From the IMG/VR virus record IMGVR_UViG_3300042887_000783, positions 1 through 23,007 of that record: a DNA stretch of 23,007 nt. One strand, written 5' to 3'. Below are positions 2,500 through 18,791 of this stretch, piece after piece. This DNA is from a virus. Numbering within the stretch: the first letter of the stretch is position 1; every line of letters starts with the position of its first letter. The translations under genes and the position numbers were made by a program. Below the pieces are notes generated by a model. That model did no database searches and was not told the origin of the DNA. It worked only from the letters and a program-made list of their open reading frames with translations.

Positions 2500-2955
2500 G
2501 TGTTCTTACTACATTTTTTGCCAGATGGGTTCTTACAATTCATTATCAACATTGTACTACTAACAGGTTTAGGGTTAACTAGCATTGGTTTCTTCCTAGT
2601 AGGATTTATTCCAGGCTTACGTAGCTACAAAACCCTTATTCAAATTGTTGGTGTTGTTCTATTAGCACTGGGTATCTACTGGAAAGGTGGCTACGGTGTT
2701 GAAATGGAATGGCGTGCGAAGGTTGCCGAACTGCAAGAGAAAGTAGCAGCAGCAGAAGCTAAATCAAAAGAAACTAATACTGTTATCCAAGAGAAAATAG
2801 TTACTAAAGTTAAACATATTAAAGATGTACAGGTTAAAATTCAACAGCAAATTGTTGAAAAAGAAAAAATTATCAACAGTGAATGTACAGTGTCTTCGGA
2901 AGCTATTGCAATCTTAAACAAAGCTGCAGAGAAACCAGTAGGAGAAGTCAAATGA
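2500..2955 (+). CDS. i-spanin (Rz-like), two predicted TM segments, GTG start
   Basis: A 151-residue membrane protein starting with GTG at 2500 (TAGGAG ribosome binding site just upstream). Two hydrophobic segments lie at about 11-36 and 45-61, followed by a long alpha-helical, coiled-coil-prone region (about 68-125) and a small C-terminal module with one cysteine (C129) and the SSEAIAILNKAAE ending seen in Rz-type proteins. Spanins connect inner and outer membranes and complete lysis of gram-negative hosts. The position directly after the endolysin and overlapping the lipoprotein gene (ATGA at 2952-2955) matches Rz/Rz1 arrangements. A classical Rz has one TM segment; two would require the N-terminus to be periplasmic, or the first segment not to span the membrane. 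Confidence 0.75.
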   Translation: MFLLHFLPDGFLQFIINIVLLTGLGLTSIGFFLVGFIPGLRSYKTLIQIVGVVLLALGIYWKGGYGVEMEWRAKVAELQEKVAAAEAKSKETNTVIQEKIVTKVKHIKDVQVKIQQQIVEKEKIINSECTVSSEAIAILNKAAEKPVGEVK

Positions 2956-3212
2956 GATACTTATTAATAGCGTTATTGTTAACAGGTTGCTCAACACTAG
3001 TTCCTGTAAAACAATCATTCCCAGAACTACCAAGCGAATTGGCGGTTGAGTGTCCTAATCTTAAACAACTGCCGCCAGAAACAACTAAACTAACCGACGT
3101 AGTAAGTACAGTAAGTGAAAACTATGGTACATATTACGAGTGCCAAGCACGTAAAGAAGCATGGGTAGAGTGGTATAAAGCACAAAAACAAATCTACGAC
3201 GGAGTTAAATAA
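2952..3212 (+). CDS. o-spanin-like outer-membrane lipoprotein
   Basis: An 86-residue lipoprotein. The frame is open from 2883, but the ATG at 2952 immediately precedes the signal peptide MRYLLIALLLTGC and overlaps the i-spanin stop (ATGA), so it is the right start. The lipobox LLTGC gives a lipidated Cys13. The mature protein is mostly polar with an early proline-rich stretch (PVKQSFPELPSELAVECP), two further cysteines (ECP, YEC) and a helical C-terminus. By position and lipoprotein nature it is the likely partner of the i-spanin upstream. Unlike lambda Rz1 it is not embedded within Rz. It overlaps the next gene by one base (TAATG), so the four small lysis genes form a tightly coupled unit. 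Confidence 0.72.
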   Translation: MRYLLIALLLTGCSTLVPVKQSFPELPSELAVECPNLKQLPPETTKLTDVVSTVSENYGTYYECQARKEAWVEWYKAQKQIYDGVK

Positions 3213-3613
3213 TGAAACGTTTAGTTGTAGTATTAGCTTTATTATTAAACGGTTGCGCACTTATTGACTACTACAATATGGCTAAATGGGATAACAATGA
3301 GTATATGATTGTTAACCAAATCCGTACAGAAGCACAATTAGGTGCAGAACATTGTGCTGTTAAAAAAGAAGTATTACCTAGTGTAAACTTTATCTACAGT
3401 AAGAGTGTAGAACTTAAAAACTACAGTTCCACTATCAGTCATAACGAAGAAGCAGCTAAGATGTCAGATGAATTATTAGCTATAACAAAAGGCCTAAAAG
3501 AGCGTTATTATAGCGGTGATGAAGTTAGTCAAAAGTATTGTGAATTAAAATTCAATACTATTGATACTAGCACAACTACAATACAGAAATCTCTAGGAGC
3601 TAAACCACGATGA
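3212..3613 (+). CDS. second predicted lipoprotein in the lysis cassette
   Basis: A 133-residue protein starting at the TAATG junction. The N-terminus MKRLVVVLALLLNGC is a short lipoprotein signal with lipobox LLNGC and lipidated Cys15. The mature part is largely alpha-helical and polar, with two other cysteines (EHCAVKK, KYCELK). I do not recognise the family. It could be an additional envelope or spanin component, or a lipoprotein that alters the envelope, for example for superinfection exclusion; the sequence alone does not decide. Overlap with both neighbours argues for expression with the lysis genes. Confidence 0.72.
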   Translation: MKRLVVVLALLLNGCALIDYYNMAKWDNNEYMIVNQIRTEAQLGAEHCAVKKEVLPSVNFIYSKSVELKNYSSTISHNEEAAKMSDELLAITKGLKERYYSGDEVSQKYCELKFNTIDTSTTTIQKSLGAKPR

Positions 3614-3816
3614 CCACACCATTAGACGTAATAGCAGAAGCGCATACGCTAGAAAATGAATTCAAAGCAGGCAGACTTAATGCTAGCGAGTTAAAAGAAA
3701 TGTTAGATGATTTAAAGCACACTAAAGCTATTTTAGCAGCCGCAGATGATCTTACAGTAAGAGGTGAGATACACCAATTAATAGACGGTATTATAGCCGC
3801 AGCTGGTGCAGTTTAA
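3610..3816 (+). CDS. small helical protein, unknown
   Basis: A 68-residue soluble protein starting in an ATGA overlap with the previous stop. Composition and pattern suggest two or three amphipathic helices (LDVIAEAHTLENEFKAG, ASELKEMLDDLKHTKAIL, RGEIHQLIDGIIAAAGAV). There is no membrane segment or signal. Its place between the lipoproteins and the holin suggests some role at lysis, such as a cytoplasmic regulator, but nothing in the sequence proves it. Confidence 0.65.
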   Translation: MTTPLDVIAEAHTLENEFKAGRLNASELKEMLDDLKHTKAILAAADDLTVRGEIHQLIDGIIAAAGAV

Positions 3817-3825
3817 TCAAAACCA

Positions 3826-3832
3826 ATAAATA
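3826..3832 (+). promoter_or_regulatory. T4-type late promoter motif ATAAATA
   Basis: Lies in the 48-base gap before the holin. The expected start site near 3838 leaves a 27-base leader containing the strong TAGGAG site at about 3852-3857, giving the holin its own late transcript separate from the endolysin/spanin block. Confidence 0.55.
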
Positions 3833-3864
3833 CTATTATAATCAATTACACTAGGAGTTAGACA

Positions 3865-4143
3865 ATGACAACAAAAGTAGAAAAAAAAGAAGATTTTATG
3901 ACGTCTAAATGGCGCCCAATGATGGCTATGACCTACATGGCTACCATCTTATTTGACTTTATTTTAGGCCCAATTTTATTTAATGTATTACAATACTGGA
4001 ATCCAGGTCAAGCAATTGGCATGTGGGTACCGTTAACATTACAAGGCGGCGGCATGTACCATATTGCCATGGGTGCTATTTTAGGTATCTCAGCATTTAC
4101 TCGTGGTAAAGAAAAAGTAGCAGAGATCGAAGCGGGAAAATAG
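3865..4143 (+). CDS. holin of the three-TM type (zero-frame product, 92 aa)
   Basis: A 92-residue membrane protein resembling the GTA/phage three-TM holin family: a polar N-terminus with SKWRP (14-18), then hydrophobic segments at about 19-45 and 51-84, and a charged C-terminus (FTRGKEKVAEIEAGK). Holins accumulate in the inner membrane and open it at a set time, releasing the endolysin. The ATG at 3865 has a strong TAGGAG site; a second ATG at residue 12 (before TSKWRP) could give a shorter form, as in dual-start holins. The stop at 4141-4143 directly follows a GGGAAAA slippery heptamer, and the -1 frame stays open for 72 codons beyond it, so this is probably only one of two products (see 4140-4358). 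Confidence 0.8.
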   Translation: MTTKVEKKEDFMTSKWRPMMAMTYMATILFDFILGPILFNVLQYWNPGQAIGMWVPLTLQGGGMYHIAMGAILGISAFTRGKEKVAEIEAGK

Positions 4144-4177
4144 AGGGGTACGGAACAGCCCCAGAAGTAAGTGTTCC
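4134..4177 (+). promoter_or_regulatory. putative programmed -1 ribosomal frameshift signal (slippery site plus H-type pseudoknot)
   Basis: The heptamer G GGA AAA (4134-4140) is in the correct phase X XXY YYZ relative to the holin frame, immediately before its TAG. Four bases later, stem 1 can form between GGGG (4145-4148) and CCCC (4159-4162). The loop sequence GGAACA (4152-4157) is perfectly complementary to TGTTCC (4172-4177), making stem 2. Loop 1 is 3 bases, the inter-stem base is one G, and loop 3 is 9 purine-rich bases. This is textbook H-type pseudoknot geometry, although stem 1 is short and the spacer is at the low end. All pairings were read by eye. Confidence 0.75.
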
Positions 4178-4358
4178 AGCAGAACCCGAATGGGTAGATA
4201 CTCCACCAGTGGCAACAGCAACAGTAGCTGATGTAACGCCAGTAGAGGCTCCTGTAGCACAACCTGAGGTAGTAGAAGTAGCAGAGGCACAACCGCTAAC
4301 TGAAACTACAGAAGACGCAGTAGATCCAAGTCGTCCAGCTAGACGTAAGAAAAAATAA
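4140..4358 (+). CDS. -1 frame extension of the holin (72 residues, no start codon of its own)
   Basis: After slipping at 4134-4140 the ribosome would continue IEGYGTAPEVSV... to TAA at 4356-4358, making a 164-residue holin-extension product. The extension is Pro/Ala/Val/Glu-rich (PVEAPVAQPEVVEVAEAQP) and ends in a basic PSRPARRKK tail, so it looks like a disordered cytoplasmic or periplasmic tail. The frame has no ATG; its upstream boundary is a stop at 4107-4109, so the shift must occur between 4110 and 4140, exactly where the slippery site is. One GTG exists about 70 bases in, without a clear ribosome binding site. A transcription terminator follows at 4387-4420. A sequencing error would also join the frames but would not explain the signal. 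Confidence 0.7.
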   Translation: MEGYGTAPEVSVPAEPEWVDTPPVATATVADVTPVEAPVAQPEVVEVAEAQPLTETTEDAVDPSRPARRKKK

Positions 4359-4371
4359 CTTACCAGTTTAG

Positions 4372-4400
4372 TTGACATTAAATAAGAAGGCAAGTATACT
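4372..4400 (+). promoter_or_regulatory. sigma70-type promoter for the methyltransferase gene
   Basis: TTGACA (4372-4377), a 17-base spacer, then TATACT (4395-4400); start expected near 4407. The -10 box lies within the terminator hairpin that ends the holin transcript. Confidence 0.8.
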
Positions 4401-4420
4401 ATATGTTACTTGCCTTTTTT
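4387..4420 (+). terminator. rho-independent terminator after the holin
   Basis: A ten-base-pair stem AAGGCAAGTA / TACTTGCCTT (4387-4396 with 4407-4416), a ten-base loop, and a run of T through 4420. It closes the lysis transcript. The predicted start of the next promoter is at the beginning of the 3' arm, so the downstream mRNA cannot form the hairpin. Confidence 0.8.
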
Positions 4421-16053: not shown

Positions 16054-17289
16054 ATGGAACAATATGTAGTTACAGGTATAGGAATATACAATGGATTGGG
16101 CGCAACAGCAGAAGAAAGTTGGCAGAATCTATTATCAGGTAAATCTGCCGTAACTACATTAGTATGGCCAGAAGATGATCCACACAAATTTCCTCCATCG
16201 TATTCAATATTCAAACCAAAAATAGCAGCAATTAGTCCTCGGTTACAGGATAATGATGCACACCCAGAACATTTTTCATATGGGTGGGCTAACTGGGATC
16301 CAAATACTCGCGCATGCTTATTAACAGTAGACGAAGCAATAAATGATGCTAAACTAACATCTAAAAATGTTGGAGTAGTTGTTAGCACATTTGGGTCAGG
16401 TACTACGTTACGGTTAACTATGTTCTCTGCAATGATGAACGGCATTAAGAAAACTCCCCCAAGAAAAATACTTAACATTGGATTAGATTTTCCAGCGGCA
16501 CAGGTAGCGGCTGTGTACAAAGTAACAGGTCCAAATACATCAATGGATAGTGCCTGCACCACTGGCATTACTTCTATAGATCATGCTGTTAATATGTTAA
16601 AAGTTAATCCCGAATTAGATGCAATGATTGTAGGTGGTGCTGATCACATGGCAGAACCAATTTACATGTATTGGTTTCAAAATTTAGGAGCATTGTGTTT
16701 ATCTGATGAGTTAACTGCTAATTGTCCATTTGATACCAAGCGAAGTGGCTTTGTATTAGGCGAGGGTGCTGCAACTATGATTATAGAACCATTAAGTAAA
16801 GCACAAGCACGCGGGGCGCACATTTACGGAAAGGTATTAAGTACGAATTTATACACTTTATTCGACAGTGATACTAGTCCAGATCCCACCGGAATAGGTG
16901 CACGTACCTGCGTACAAACAGCACTAAACAAGGCAGGTATTATTTCCAATGATATAGATGTTATTAATGCTCATGCTACAAGTACCCCAGTTGGTGATGA
17001 AATAGAATTTAATGCTATGTTAGAGCTGACCCCCGGTCGTACTATGGTCAGTAACAAAGGACAGATCGGACATAGCATGAGTGCTTCGGGTATAGTAGAA
17101 ACTATCTATACACTATTAGGCATGCGCGATAGTCGTCAACCGGGCAATGCCAACTTAGTTTCGCCGCTAGGTGAAGGTATGATATTACCTGTAACCGCAA
17201 TAGATTTAAATGTTAAATATGCTATAAAGAATAGTTTTGGATTTGGGGGGCGTAATGCCAGCATGGTTCTCGAAAGATATGATAGCTAA
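16054..17289 (+). CDS. fabF: beta-ketoacyl-ACP synthase, FabF (KAS II) type
   Basis: A 411-residue thiolase-fold condensing enzyme, the same length as E. coli FabF. The catalytic triad is intact and at the usual positions: C168 in MDSACTTG, H307 in NAHATSTPVGDEIE, H340 in KGQIGHSMSASG, plus K335. KAS II condenses malonyl-ACP with acyl-ACP, lengthening chains from C16 to C18 and governing cis-vaccenate content. The C-terminal glycine loop reads GFGGRN, where T is usual after GFGG, so substrate or partner use may differ. Residues 38-90 (PHKFPPSYSIFKPKIAAISP) differ from housekeeping FabF. It is the first gene of a unit with two desaturases and an oxygenase and is read from a strong host-type promoter, so it is likely expressed early to alter host acyl chains. 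Confidence 0.93.
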   Translation: MEQYVVTGIGIYNGLGATAEESWQNLLSGKSAVTTLVWPEDDPHKFPPSYSIFKPKIAAISPRLQDNDAHPEHFSYGWANWDPNTRACLLTVDEAINDAKLTSKNVGVVVSTFGSGTTLRLTMFSAMMNGIKKTPPRKILNIGLDFPAAQVAAVYKVTGPNTSMDSACTTGITSIDHAVNMLKVNPELDAMIVGGADHMAEPIYMYWFQNLGALCLSDELTANCPFDTKRSGFVLGEGAATMIIEPLSKAQARGAHIYGKVLSTNLYTLFDSDTSPDPTGIGARTCVQTALNKAGIISNDIDVINAHATSTPVGDEIEFNAMLELTPGRTMVSNKGQIGHSMSASGIVETIYTLLGMRDSRQPGNANLVSPLGEGMILPVTAIDLNVKYAIKNSFGFGGRNASMVLERYDS

Positions 17290-18061
17290 ATTAATTAAAC
17301 CAAGTAGATGGTTTAGTAGTGCAATGCAGATTGCTGTATTTTTCGCCATCGCCTACGGCATTAGTTTAGATGTTAGCTGGTATTGGTGGGCAGGTACTAT
17401 ATTCTTTTATCTAATAATATATTCAATGATTGGTAATAACATTGCTCTACATCGTTACTTTACCCACGGTCACTTTACAGTTAACAAATATGTTGAATGG
17501 TTTTTCTTATGGACCGGCAGCATGATTGGGTTGGGTGAGCCTATTAGTTATGCTATGACACATGCTGTCCATCACAAGTATAGTGATGTCTCTGGCATCG
17601 ATCCTCACGGCCCTACTAATAAGGTTCGTTCAATTTTTATATGGTTCCACAGAGAAGTTGATCCCGTAAAAACACCAATTTATAGTAAACATATTGTTAA
17701 TTTAGGCCGTAGATACTGGTGGCTGCATAAATTTTATGTGCCTATTGTATTATTAAATGCCGCAGTATTATGGCTTATTGATTTTAAAATATTTTTATTC
17801 TTGTGGTTAATACCTGCAGGTATCACCTGTTGGGGAGTTGCGTGGGCTGTGTGGCGACAACATTGGCATTATGAAGCAAATAACAGTCCGTTACATCGAT
17901 GGGATTGGGTCTACGAAGGATTGCATTTAAATCATCATTTATGGCCAATGGCTCCTAACACCGCAGTTAGAGCCAACGAAATAGATTGGACTTATCAATT
18001 TAGTAAACTGTTTAGACCTAAATATAACATGCAAGGGCAACCCACAGATGTCAAAGATTAA
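17279..18061 (+). CDS. membrane fatty-acid desaturase 1 (delta-9/stearoyl-CoA type)
   Basis: A 260-residue di-iron membrane desaturase. Three histidine boxes are complete: HRYFTHGH (58-65), HAVHH (95-99) and HLNHH (216-220). Hydrophobic segments lie at about 14-55, 73-92 and 153-190, giving the usual topology with boxes on the cytoplasmic side. Such enzymes use oxygen and an electron donor to insert a double bond into an acyl chain. The frame is open from 17237, but the ATG at 17279 aligns the N-terminus (MIAKLIKPSRW) with that of the next desaturase (MSKIKWIIQPNY), so I prefer it; it overlaps fabF by 11 bases. Together with FabF it should change membrane unsaturation. Confidence 0.9.
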   Translation: MIAKLIKPSRWFSSAMQIAVFFAIAYGISLDVSWYWWAGTIFFYLIIYSMIGNNIALHRYFTHGHFTVNKYVEWFFLWTGSMIGLGEPISYAMTHAVHHKYSDVSGIDPHGPTNKVRSIFIWFHREVDPVKTPIYSKHIVNLGRRYWWLHKFYVPIVLLNAAVLWLIDFKIFLFLWLIPAGITCWGVAWAVWRQHWHYEANNSPLHRWDWVYEGLHLNHHLWPMAPNTAVRANEIDWTYQFSKLFRPKYNMQGQPTDVKD

Positions 18062-18791
18062 ATGGATTATTCAGCCCAATTATTTATGGATGACTGCCAT
18101 GCAGATATTAACTCCAGTGTGGGTATACCTAGCCTGGGGTAGTGAATGGTATTGGTGGGCAATAGCGTTTGTATTTTATTTTTTATATCTGTGTATAGGT
18201 AATAATATCGGCATGCATCGTTATTATTGTCATAGATATTTTGAAATGTTAAAACCCGTAGAATATTTTGTAGCGTGGTGCGCATTTATGGCCTGTTTAG
18301 GTAGCCCATTGAGTTATGTAAACATTCACAACGTACATCATAGATACCCCGATACAGAACAAGACCCACACGGTCGTAGTCGTGGTTGGAAGAGTTTACT
18401 ATTTTGGCATCACAAACATCTATGGCCTTGTGATATGATCTTTACTCGCAACCTATTAAAATTAACAGCCAAGTATAAACTATTACATGACTACTACTGG
18501 CTGTGGGTATTTGGTACAGCTGGATTGATGTATGCATTGGGTGGATGGAATATTCTATTATTCTGTTGGTTATTGCCTGCAGGACTTTCACTATGGGCAG
18601 TAGCATTAGTGTTGTTACTACAGCACGACAATAATGGTCCTAGTAATACTAGAAATTATATGTGGTTTAGTTTTGGCGAAACTTGGCACGGTAATCATCA
18701 CGAAGATCCTAGTCTAATAGATCATGCTAAAGGCAACGGAGTAGATTGGACTTACGAACTATGCAAAATCCTATCCAAGTCAAAGAAATAA
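18048..18791 (+). CDS. membrane fatty-acid desaturase 2, diverged paralogue
   Basis: A 247-residue homologue of the preceding protein with the same plan: HRYYCH (57-62), HNVHH (94-98) and HGNHH (214-218), hydrophobic segments at about 16-50, 72-92 and 150-192, and the same IGNNI.(L/M)HRY and (D/V)DWTYE-like C-terminal elements. Identity to desaturase 1 looks modest, so the duplication is old or the two were acquired separately, and different regio-specificity is likely. The box-3 context (ETWHGNHHED) is closer to bacterial acyl-CoA desaturases (GE.WHNNHH). It starts 14 bases inside the end of desaturase 1 and overlaps the oxygenase gene, so the operon is translationally coupled. Confidence 0.9.
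   Translation: MSKIKWIIQPNYLWMTAMQILTPVWVYLAWGSEWYWWAIAFVFYFLYLCIGNNIGMHRYYCHRYFEMLKPVEYFVAWCAFMACLGSPLSYVNIHNVHHRYPDTEQDPHGRSRGWKSLLFWHHKHLWPCDMIFTRNLLKLTAKYKLLHDYYWLWVFGTAGLMYALGGWNILLFCWLLPAGLSLWAVALVLLLQHDNNGPSNTRNYMWFSFGETWHGNHHEDPSLIDHAKGNGVDWTYELCKILSKSKK

Follow-up and report, generated by a model that had tools for sequence, protein, structure and literature searches.

Does the small gene at 3865-4143 of this viral DNA, predicted to encode a holin, end in a site at which some ribosomes change frame to make a second, longer protein, and what would that second form be for? The question comes from a preliminary description of the window (by which we mean the whole analysed stretch of 23,007 nucleotides from IMG/VR record IMGVR_UViG_3300042887_000783), which had read a programmed -1 frameshift at the end of the gene and had suggested an antiholin or timer role for the extended product. 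The recoding site, the pseudoknot, the -1 extension, the terminator-like hairpin and the genes of the lysis cassette, together with a box upstream of the holin gene, all lie on the plus strand.

A candidate recoding site at the end of a holin-like gene

The zero-frame ORF for the short holin (3865-4143) consists of 92 codons followed by TAG, and its 3' end reads GCG GGA AAA TAG. Direct reading places the slippery heptamer GGGAAAA at 4134-4140, in phase as G GGA AAA and abutted by the zero-frame stop TAG (4141-4143), and a four-base spacer, TAGA (4141-4144), lies between the heptamer and the first of two stems. Stem 1 (4145-4162) pairs GGGG at 4145-4148 with CCCC at 4159-4162, with an optional extra wobble pair U4149-G4158, and stem 2 (4152-4177) pairs GGAACA at 4152-4157 with TGTTCC at 4172-4177; the two stems are interleaved and would form an H-type pseudoknot. 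The heptamer, its phase, the stop, the spacer and the pseudoknot coordinates had been given in the preliminary description exactly, base for base. None of 400 shuffles, and 0.06% of window positions, gave a pseudoknot stem energy as good as the observed -14.2.

The -1 frame reads GGG AAA ATA GAG... and extends over 4140-4358, with 72 codons (4140-4355) followed by TAA at 4356-4358. A shift at GGG AAA keeps the last two residues of the holin (GK), and the predicted long product would have 164 residues compared with 92 for the short form, with the junction peptide ...EAGKIEGYG... (junction EAGK-IEGYGTAPEVSVPAEPEW). We found no ATG in the -1 frame of the window and a single GTG, at codon 25, which had no Shine-Dalgarno-like sequence. 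Direct reading thus bears out the 72 open codons of the -1 frame, its lack of an ATG and its end ahead of a terminator, the last being a terminator-like hairpin, GGCAAGTA/TACTTGCC, followed by a T run (4389-4420; hairpin 4389-4414, T run 4415-4420), whose 10-nt loop is above the limit of our hairpin scan. Between the tail and the methyltransferase gene we also noted a sigma-70-like promoter, TTGACA-17-TATACT (11/12), at window 4372-4400, where it overlaps the terminator hairpin. Transcriptional slippage at the heptamer was considered and rejected because the A run, read directly, is only 3-4 long.

Gene identity and the lysis cassette

The holin ORF matched PF11351 (GTA_holin_3TM) at 24.6 bits, just under the gathering cut-off of 24.8 and over the second half of the model only, and matched the PHROG 3427 holin with E=9e-6. 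By region, the short holin comprises an N-terminal region, two predicted helices and a short charged end, and its AlphaFold model (pLDDT 86) has two long helices at residues 11-45 and 64-89. Foldseek returned four best viral matches named 'Holin of 3TMs', all of them GTA_holin_3TM, with E-values down to 3.8e-7. In phage PA5oct, a distant homologue (26% identity) carries the annotation of virion structural protein, based on mass spectrometry (ESI-MS). This annotation and the marginal PF11351 score are what one would expect if the gene encoded some other small membrane protein, e.g., of the virion or for membrane remodelling, with a frameshift giving two isoforms as in structural genes; we consider this improbable, as all of the best Foldseek matches are to GTA_holin_3TM and the conserved cassette around the gene holds an endolysin and two spanin-like genes. 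The gene product is likely to be a holin.

The cassette begins with the endolysin (1653-2498; PHROG 181, PG_binding_1), followed by a probable inner-membrane spanin (Rz-like, 2500-2955; PHROG 312, E=0.0014, and synteny), an outer-membrane spanin that overlaps it (Rz1-like, 2934-3212; PF23793 LysC), a lipoprotein (3212-3613) and a small 68-residue ORF (3610-3816), the latter two being placed in the cassette by conserved synteny. The order endolysin, Rz-like, Rz1-like, lipoprotein, small ORF, holin is kept in most relatives with enough flank. A AATAAATACTATTATAAT box at 3825-3842, 22-40 bases ahead of the holin start, was recognisable in 14 of the 15 loci that share the frameshift arrangement (that of L142 being somewhat different) and also in L158, a relative with a fused tail; it may be a late promoter of the T4 type. 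Across the whole window the core WATAAATA was not enriched.

Several observations were made beside these. The lysis gene order differs in the branch of L300 and L289, where the holin overlaps the start of the Rz-like frame (ATGCC TAG). Elsewhere in the window, 16054-18791 holds a ketoacyl-synthase-like ORF and two adjacent fatty-acid-desaturase-like ORFs (recognised by eye), an unusual cargo for a phage. In four relatives with shorter holin tails (L163, at 613-1496; L164; L171; L049) the gene immediately 5' of the holin encodes a baseplate hub protein like T4 gp26 (PF12322, PHROG 150). An in-phase T TTT TTC precedes the stop of this gene by one codon, and the -1 frame past the heptamer codes for a baseplate hub assembly catalyst like gp51 (PHROG 634). 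To judge from these four loci, in which it is conserved, this looks like a second -1 frameshift, joining the gp26-like and gp51-like proteins.

Conservation of the recoding signal among relatives

Scanning IMG/VR with the holin sequence and its profiles gave ~70 distinct relatives, and 15 distinct loci (18 contigs), the window counted among them, share the arrangement described above; the family is one of environmental viruses of bacteria. In all 15 the heptamer is in phase as GGGAAAA or GGGAAAG (G GGA AAR), the zero-frame stop follows 0-3 codons past it, and the -1 frame is open over 64-95 codons; the spacer to the pseudoknot is 4-5 nt in most, which falls in the range of 4-8 nt expected for a stimulatory structure. 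A broken -1 frame beside an intact holin, which would have counted against programmed frameshifting, was not seen in any of the 15 loci. A sequencing indel or assembly error at the heptamer was ruled out, as 18 contigs agree.

The signal also appeared to be specific to this gene. A DNA pattern combining heptamer and pseudoknot found 15 stretches in IMG/VR, every one in a contig of this holin gene family, and among 1398 distinct ORF ends in the fetched DNA the combination of G GGA AAR with an open -1 frame of at least 60 codons occurred in the holin family alone. A tail profile scan of IMG/VR, which used the C-terminal motif D[PS][NSD]RP[LAK]RRK only, found 17 confirmed loci, all on contigs of the holin gene; 16 of them have the frameshift arrangement, and the other has the mirror arrangement to which we return below. 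By the search method used, no relatives were found in 84,980 bacterial and archaeal genomes. The T4 major capsid protein gp23 (PF07068) was missing from 9 of 10 partial contigs of frameshift loci. In its holin core the window clusters with L170, which has another, fused tail, and the recoding site and tail start of the window are nearly identical to those of L153; judging from these similarities, the 3' recoding cassette of the window may have been exchanged by recombination (window 3865-4190).

Pseudoknot covariation and selection

For covariation we used 16 distinct sequences, mirror and fused loci included. Of the pair cells, 88.8% were paired, whereas shuffles gave 76.3% and sliding the partners by 1-3 columns gave 41-64%; the shuffle controls ignore relatedness, and the slide control, which takes account of it, agrees with them. 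Stem 2 showed double-sided (compensatory) changes in five of its six pairs, double-sided changes amounted to 22 cells where 7.4 were expected, and the covariation score of 0.395 was reached by 0 of 500 shuffles (shuffle mean 0.168). Across the loci, stem energies were better than those of 98-100% of shuffles. Stem 1 was less regular, with three invariant or near-invariant G-C pairs and an outer pair that in some loci is missing or out of register; its description as GGGG/CCCC holds for the window and has to be relaxed for several relatives, which have 3-4 Watson-Crick pairs with A in place of the outermost G.

At unchanged residues, codons had changed in 21% of cases within the pseudoknot, versus 40% for the holin core and 47% for the tail beyond the pseudoknot, and in comparisons of the window with L153, L148, L150 and L151 none of 12 pseudoknot codons had changed while 45-48% had in the core. 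Between close pairs, substitutions in the tail fell mostly at third positions of the -1 frame (4, 4 and 14 at the three positions for L148/L151). The covariation, the codon-change rates, the third-position bias and the invariant residues of the tail together argue that selection acts on the RNA element as well as on the -1 protein.

These patterns bear on whether there is any programmed event at all, since the tail could be the decaying remnant of a once-fused C-terminus, or an assembly error. Relatives with a fused tail do exist (L158, L149, L155 and L156), and in the wider family the tail is not always present; however, 18 contigs share the heptamer and an intact tail, and the third-position bias, the compensatory changes in the pseudoknot and the mirror arrangement are all contrary to decay, such that we find this reading scarcely credible. 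The proposal of a programmed -1 frameshift, by comparison, draws on heptamer, covariation and open -1 frame in all 15 loci, and the comparative sequence evidence makes it very likely that a conserved frameshift in the window gene is real. Conservation in homologous loci was one of the checks that the preliminary description had named, and it came out in favour on each element (heptamer, pseudoknot covariation and open -1 frame).

The C-terminal tail

The tails contain 11-25% Pro, and their net charge is -6 to -16 over the body and +5 or +6 over the last eight residues, a composition and charge in keeping with the earlier wording of a Pro/Glu-rich tail with a basic end. Every tail shares GK..G, P.W and an end of RPxRRK type; those of the frameshift loci end in (D)(P/S)xRPxRRKK, and that of the window ends in DPSRPARRKKK. 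The tail body varies freely in length, and the far end (e.g., DPNRPLRRKK) and P.W are the most conserved parts. No start codon was conserved among the tails, and the -1 frame had no ATG, GTG or TTG close to the stop.

The start codons are relevant to a different route to the tail, by reinitiation at the stop codon or readthrough of it. A stop codon does lie beside the site, and translational coupling is common in phage operons; however, the -1 frame offers reinitiation no start near the stop, let alone a conserved one, the zero frame closes 5-29 codons past the stop, which leaves readthrough no way to the tail, and the heptamer is kept even where the stop is 1-3 codons off (L152, L157). We regard both routes as very improbable.

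The tail of the long holin is probably cytoplasmic, as would be expected from the positive-inside rule because basic residues flank both helix ends. For comparison, the C-terminus of the lambda holin is described as a cytoplasmic regulatory domain (Blasi 1999, as cited in PMC7312051). More distant holins of the same cassette carry different tails, some with basic ends (RATPTRKIT, KPTRKKPNF), or have none. Of the relatives, L184, L210, L160 and others have no tail, and some have fused tails of an unrelated kind. Since tail-less and differently tailed relatives exist, the tail is not essential to the holin family, and since fused relatives tail every molecule and others none, the tail would be neither inhibitory nor essential as such.

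Another possibility is that the frameshift is real and that the tail mainly serves to hold a partner, with the RRKK end or the acidic body binding endolysin, spanin, nucleic acid or membrane. That conservation peaks at the far end (DPNRPLRRKK) and at P.W is as one would expect of a docking motif; no partner is known, however, and any such partner would have to be optional, given that the distant cassette holins vary or omit the tail. We consider this reading unlikely, though deserving of more weight than the idea that the gene is something other than a holin.

Mirror arrangement and fused relatives

Homologues with the two frames fused had been named in the preliminary description as a finding that would speak against it, and such homologues were found in L149, L155, L156 and L158. 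The frameshift claim nevertheless stands, because three of the four keep the pseudoknot together with G GGU UUU and an instant -1 stop. In L149, L155 and L156 the tail is encoded in frame 0, with an in-phase G GGU UUU AAU located 5 nt 5' of GGGG, at which a -1 shift would read GGG UUU UAA and meet an immediate stop. The pseudoknot of L149 is the same as in the frameshift loci, and L155/L156 have a different stem 2, GGUGCUU with AAGCAUC or AAGCGCC, which is fully paired when G-U wobbles are included. As -1 ribosomes would stop at once, these mirror loci should yield both forms with the roles of the frames swapped; the long form should be the major product there, and the isoform ratio, if relevant, would differ between lineages.

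A search for the mirror pattern in IMG/VR found exactly these three contigs and none elsewhere. In a tree of holin cores L149 was placed apart from the L155/L156 pair, although this tree is short and weak, and recombination is likely. About 2-3% of ORF ends have an in-phase heptamer of any kind close to the stop, and fewer still would have a -1 stop directly after it, making it unlikely that two mirror lineages arose by chance (a rough estimate, not a computed probability). On these sequence comparisons, the simplest reading would be that selection kept both isoforms while the frame of the long form changed.

In the fourth fused relative, L158, stem 2 is weaker and a canonical heptamer is lacking; it carries A CCU UUU AGU, at which a -1 shift would give UAG, and it may have lost the frameshift signal. 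Recoding in more distant fused relatives was rejected, as there was no in-phase heptamer at a suitable position. A G GGT TTT in L170 was likewise rejected as a recoding site; it lies 50 codons into another tail and has no GGGG/CCCC stem behind it.

Comparison with known systems

Tailed phages are known to use -1 frameshifts mainly in tail genes and some structural genes, and those of the tail chaperones are reportedly conserved (Xu, Hendrix and Duda 2004). The closest parallel is lambda gpG/gpGT, where G GGA AAG gives a few percent of shifting: in both, the -1 shift is by tandem slippage at G GGA AAR, close to where a phage gene ends, both give a short and a C-terminally extended product, and in both the signal is conserved in many phages. 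The window gene differs in encoding a holin-like membrane protein in a lysis cassette rather than a tail protein, in having a disordered charged tail as its extension and a covarying H-type pseudoknot after the site, and in that some relatives swap the frame of the long form. We found neither homology to tail chaperones nor a place before a tape measure gene; the matches are instead to holins, and the setting is the lysis cassette.

In dnaX of E. coli (tau/gamma), the shifted ribosome meets an immediate stop and makes the short form, giving two isoforms with a common N-terminus, and L149, L155 and L156 would resemble it in that a shifted ribosome stops at once to give the short form. Unlike the genes studied here, dnaX is bacterial, uses A AAA AAG with a stem-loop, and is unrelated in sequence. 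The membrane part of the holin is similar to GTA_holin_3TM (PF11351) and PHROG 3427 in fold and sequence; the isolate phages have distant holins only, and unlike the window gene none of these has the frameshift signal (Phosso, Atu_ph07 and PA5oct checked).

Frameshifting has been tied to phage lysis before, expression of the MS2 lysis gene being, it is said, 'dependent on a frameshift'. The likeness to the MS2 lysis gene (Kastelein 1982) goes no further than this tie, for in MS2 a ribosome that shifts within the coat gene terminates, which allows initiation at the overlapping lysis gene, and the lysis protein is not extended. In the literature we searched, mostly papers outside subscription, we found no published -1 frameshift in a holin: the word holin is absent from the available portion of a 2016 recoding review and from the PRFect paper, and in the papers retrieved that deal with both, holins and frameshifting appear as separate features. 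A +1 frameshift is described for the tail tube protein of SPP1 (PMC6316719).

Discussion

The explanation that we favour, and hold to be somewhat probable as a whole, is that the frameshift in the holin gene yields short and long isoforms and that the tailed share sets the timing of lysis. Most ribosomes would stop at the UAG past the heptamer and make the 92-residue holin, with two membrane helices and, probably, both termini in the cytoplasm. As the stop codon enters the A site and the pseudoknot lies in front, some ribosomes at G GGA AAA would shift to GGG AAA and add a 72-residue disordered tail of acidic body and basic end, giving the 164-residue holin. Sharing their membrane part, the two forms should co-assemble, and the fixed share of tailed subunits, governed by the efficiency of the shift, would set the triggering time of the holin array.

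A timing role for the tail is plausible, though we hold it far less firmly than we do the signal, its covariation, the selection on the tail as a protein and the place of the gene in a lysis cassette, which comparison of the relatives supports. That the long form is simply an antiholin, as had been suggested, is unproven, and the relatives argue against it: the mirror loci would make mostly the long form, L158 the long form only, and several relatives none. The tail would therefore tune rather than block, or bind something. The fullest version of the proposal, which we see as possible rather than probable, is a lysis clock set by recoding, in which a charged C-terminal tail goes to a fixed share of holin subunits and both isoforms are under selection strong enough for the mirror arrangement to have been rebuilt around the same pseudoknot in two places of the tree.

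Holins are tuned by dual starts and antiholins. Like lambda S105/S107, the lambdoid dual starts and T4 T/RI, the window gene would be a lysis locus with two related forms whose ratio sets the time of lysis; in those systems the forms come from two start codons or a separate antiholin gene, whereas here they would differ at the C-terminus through recoding. If true, a covarying frameshift signal in a holin would be a third means of setting the ratio between two holin forms, with that ratio under the control of the ribosome. The mirror arrangement would then be a natural experiment that separates the need for both isoforms from the need for this particular ratio.
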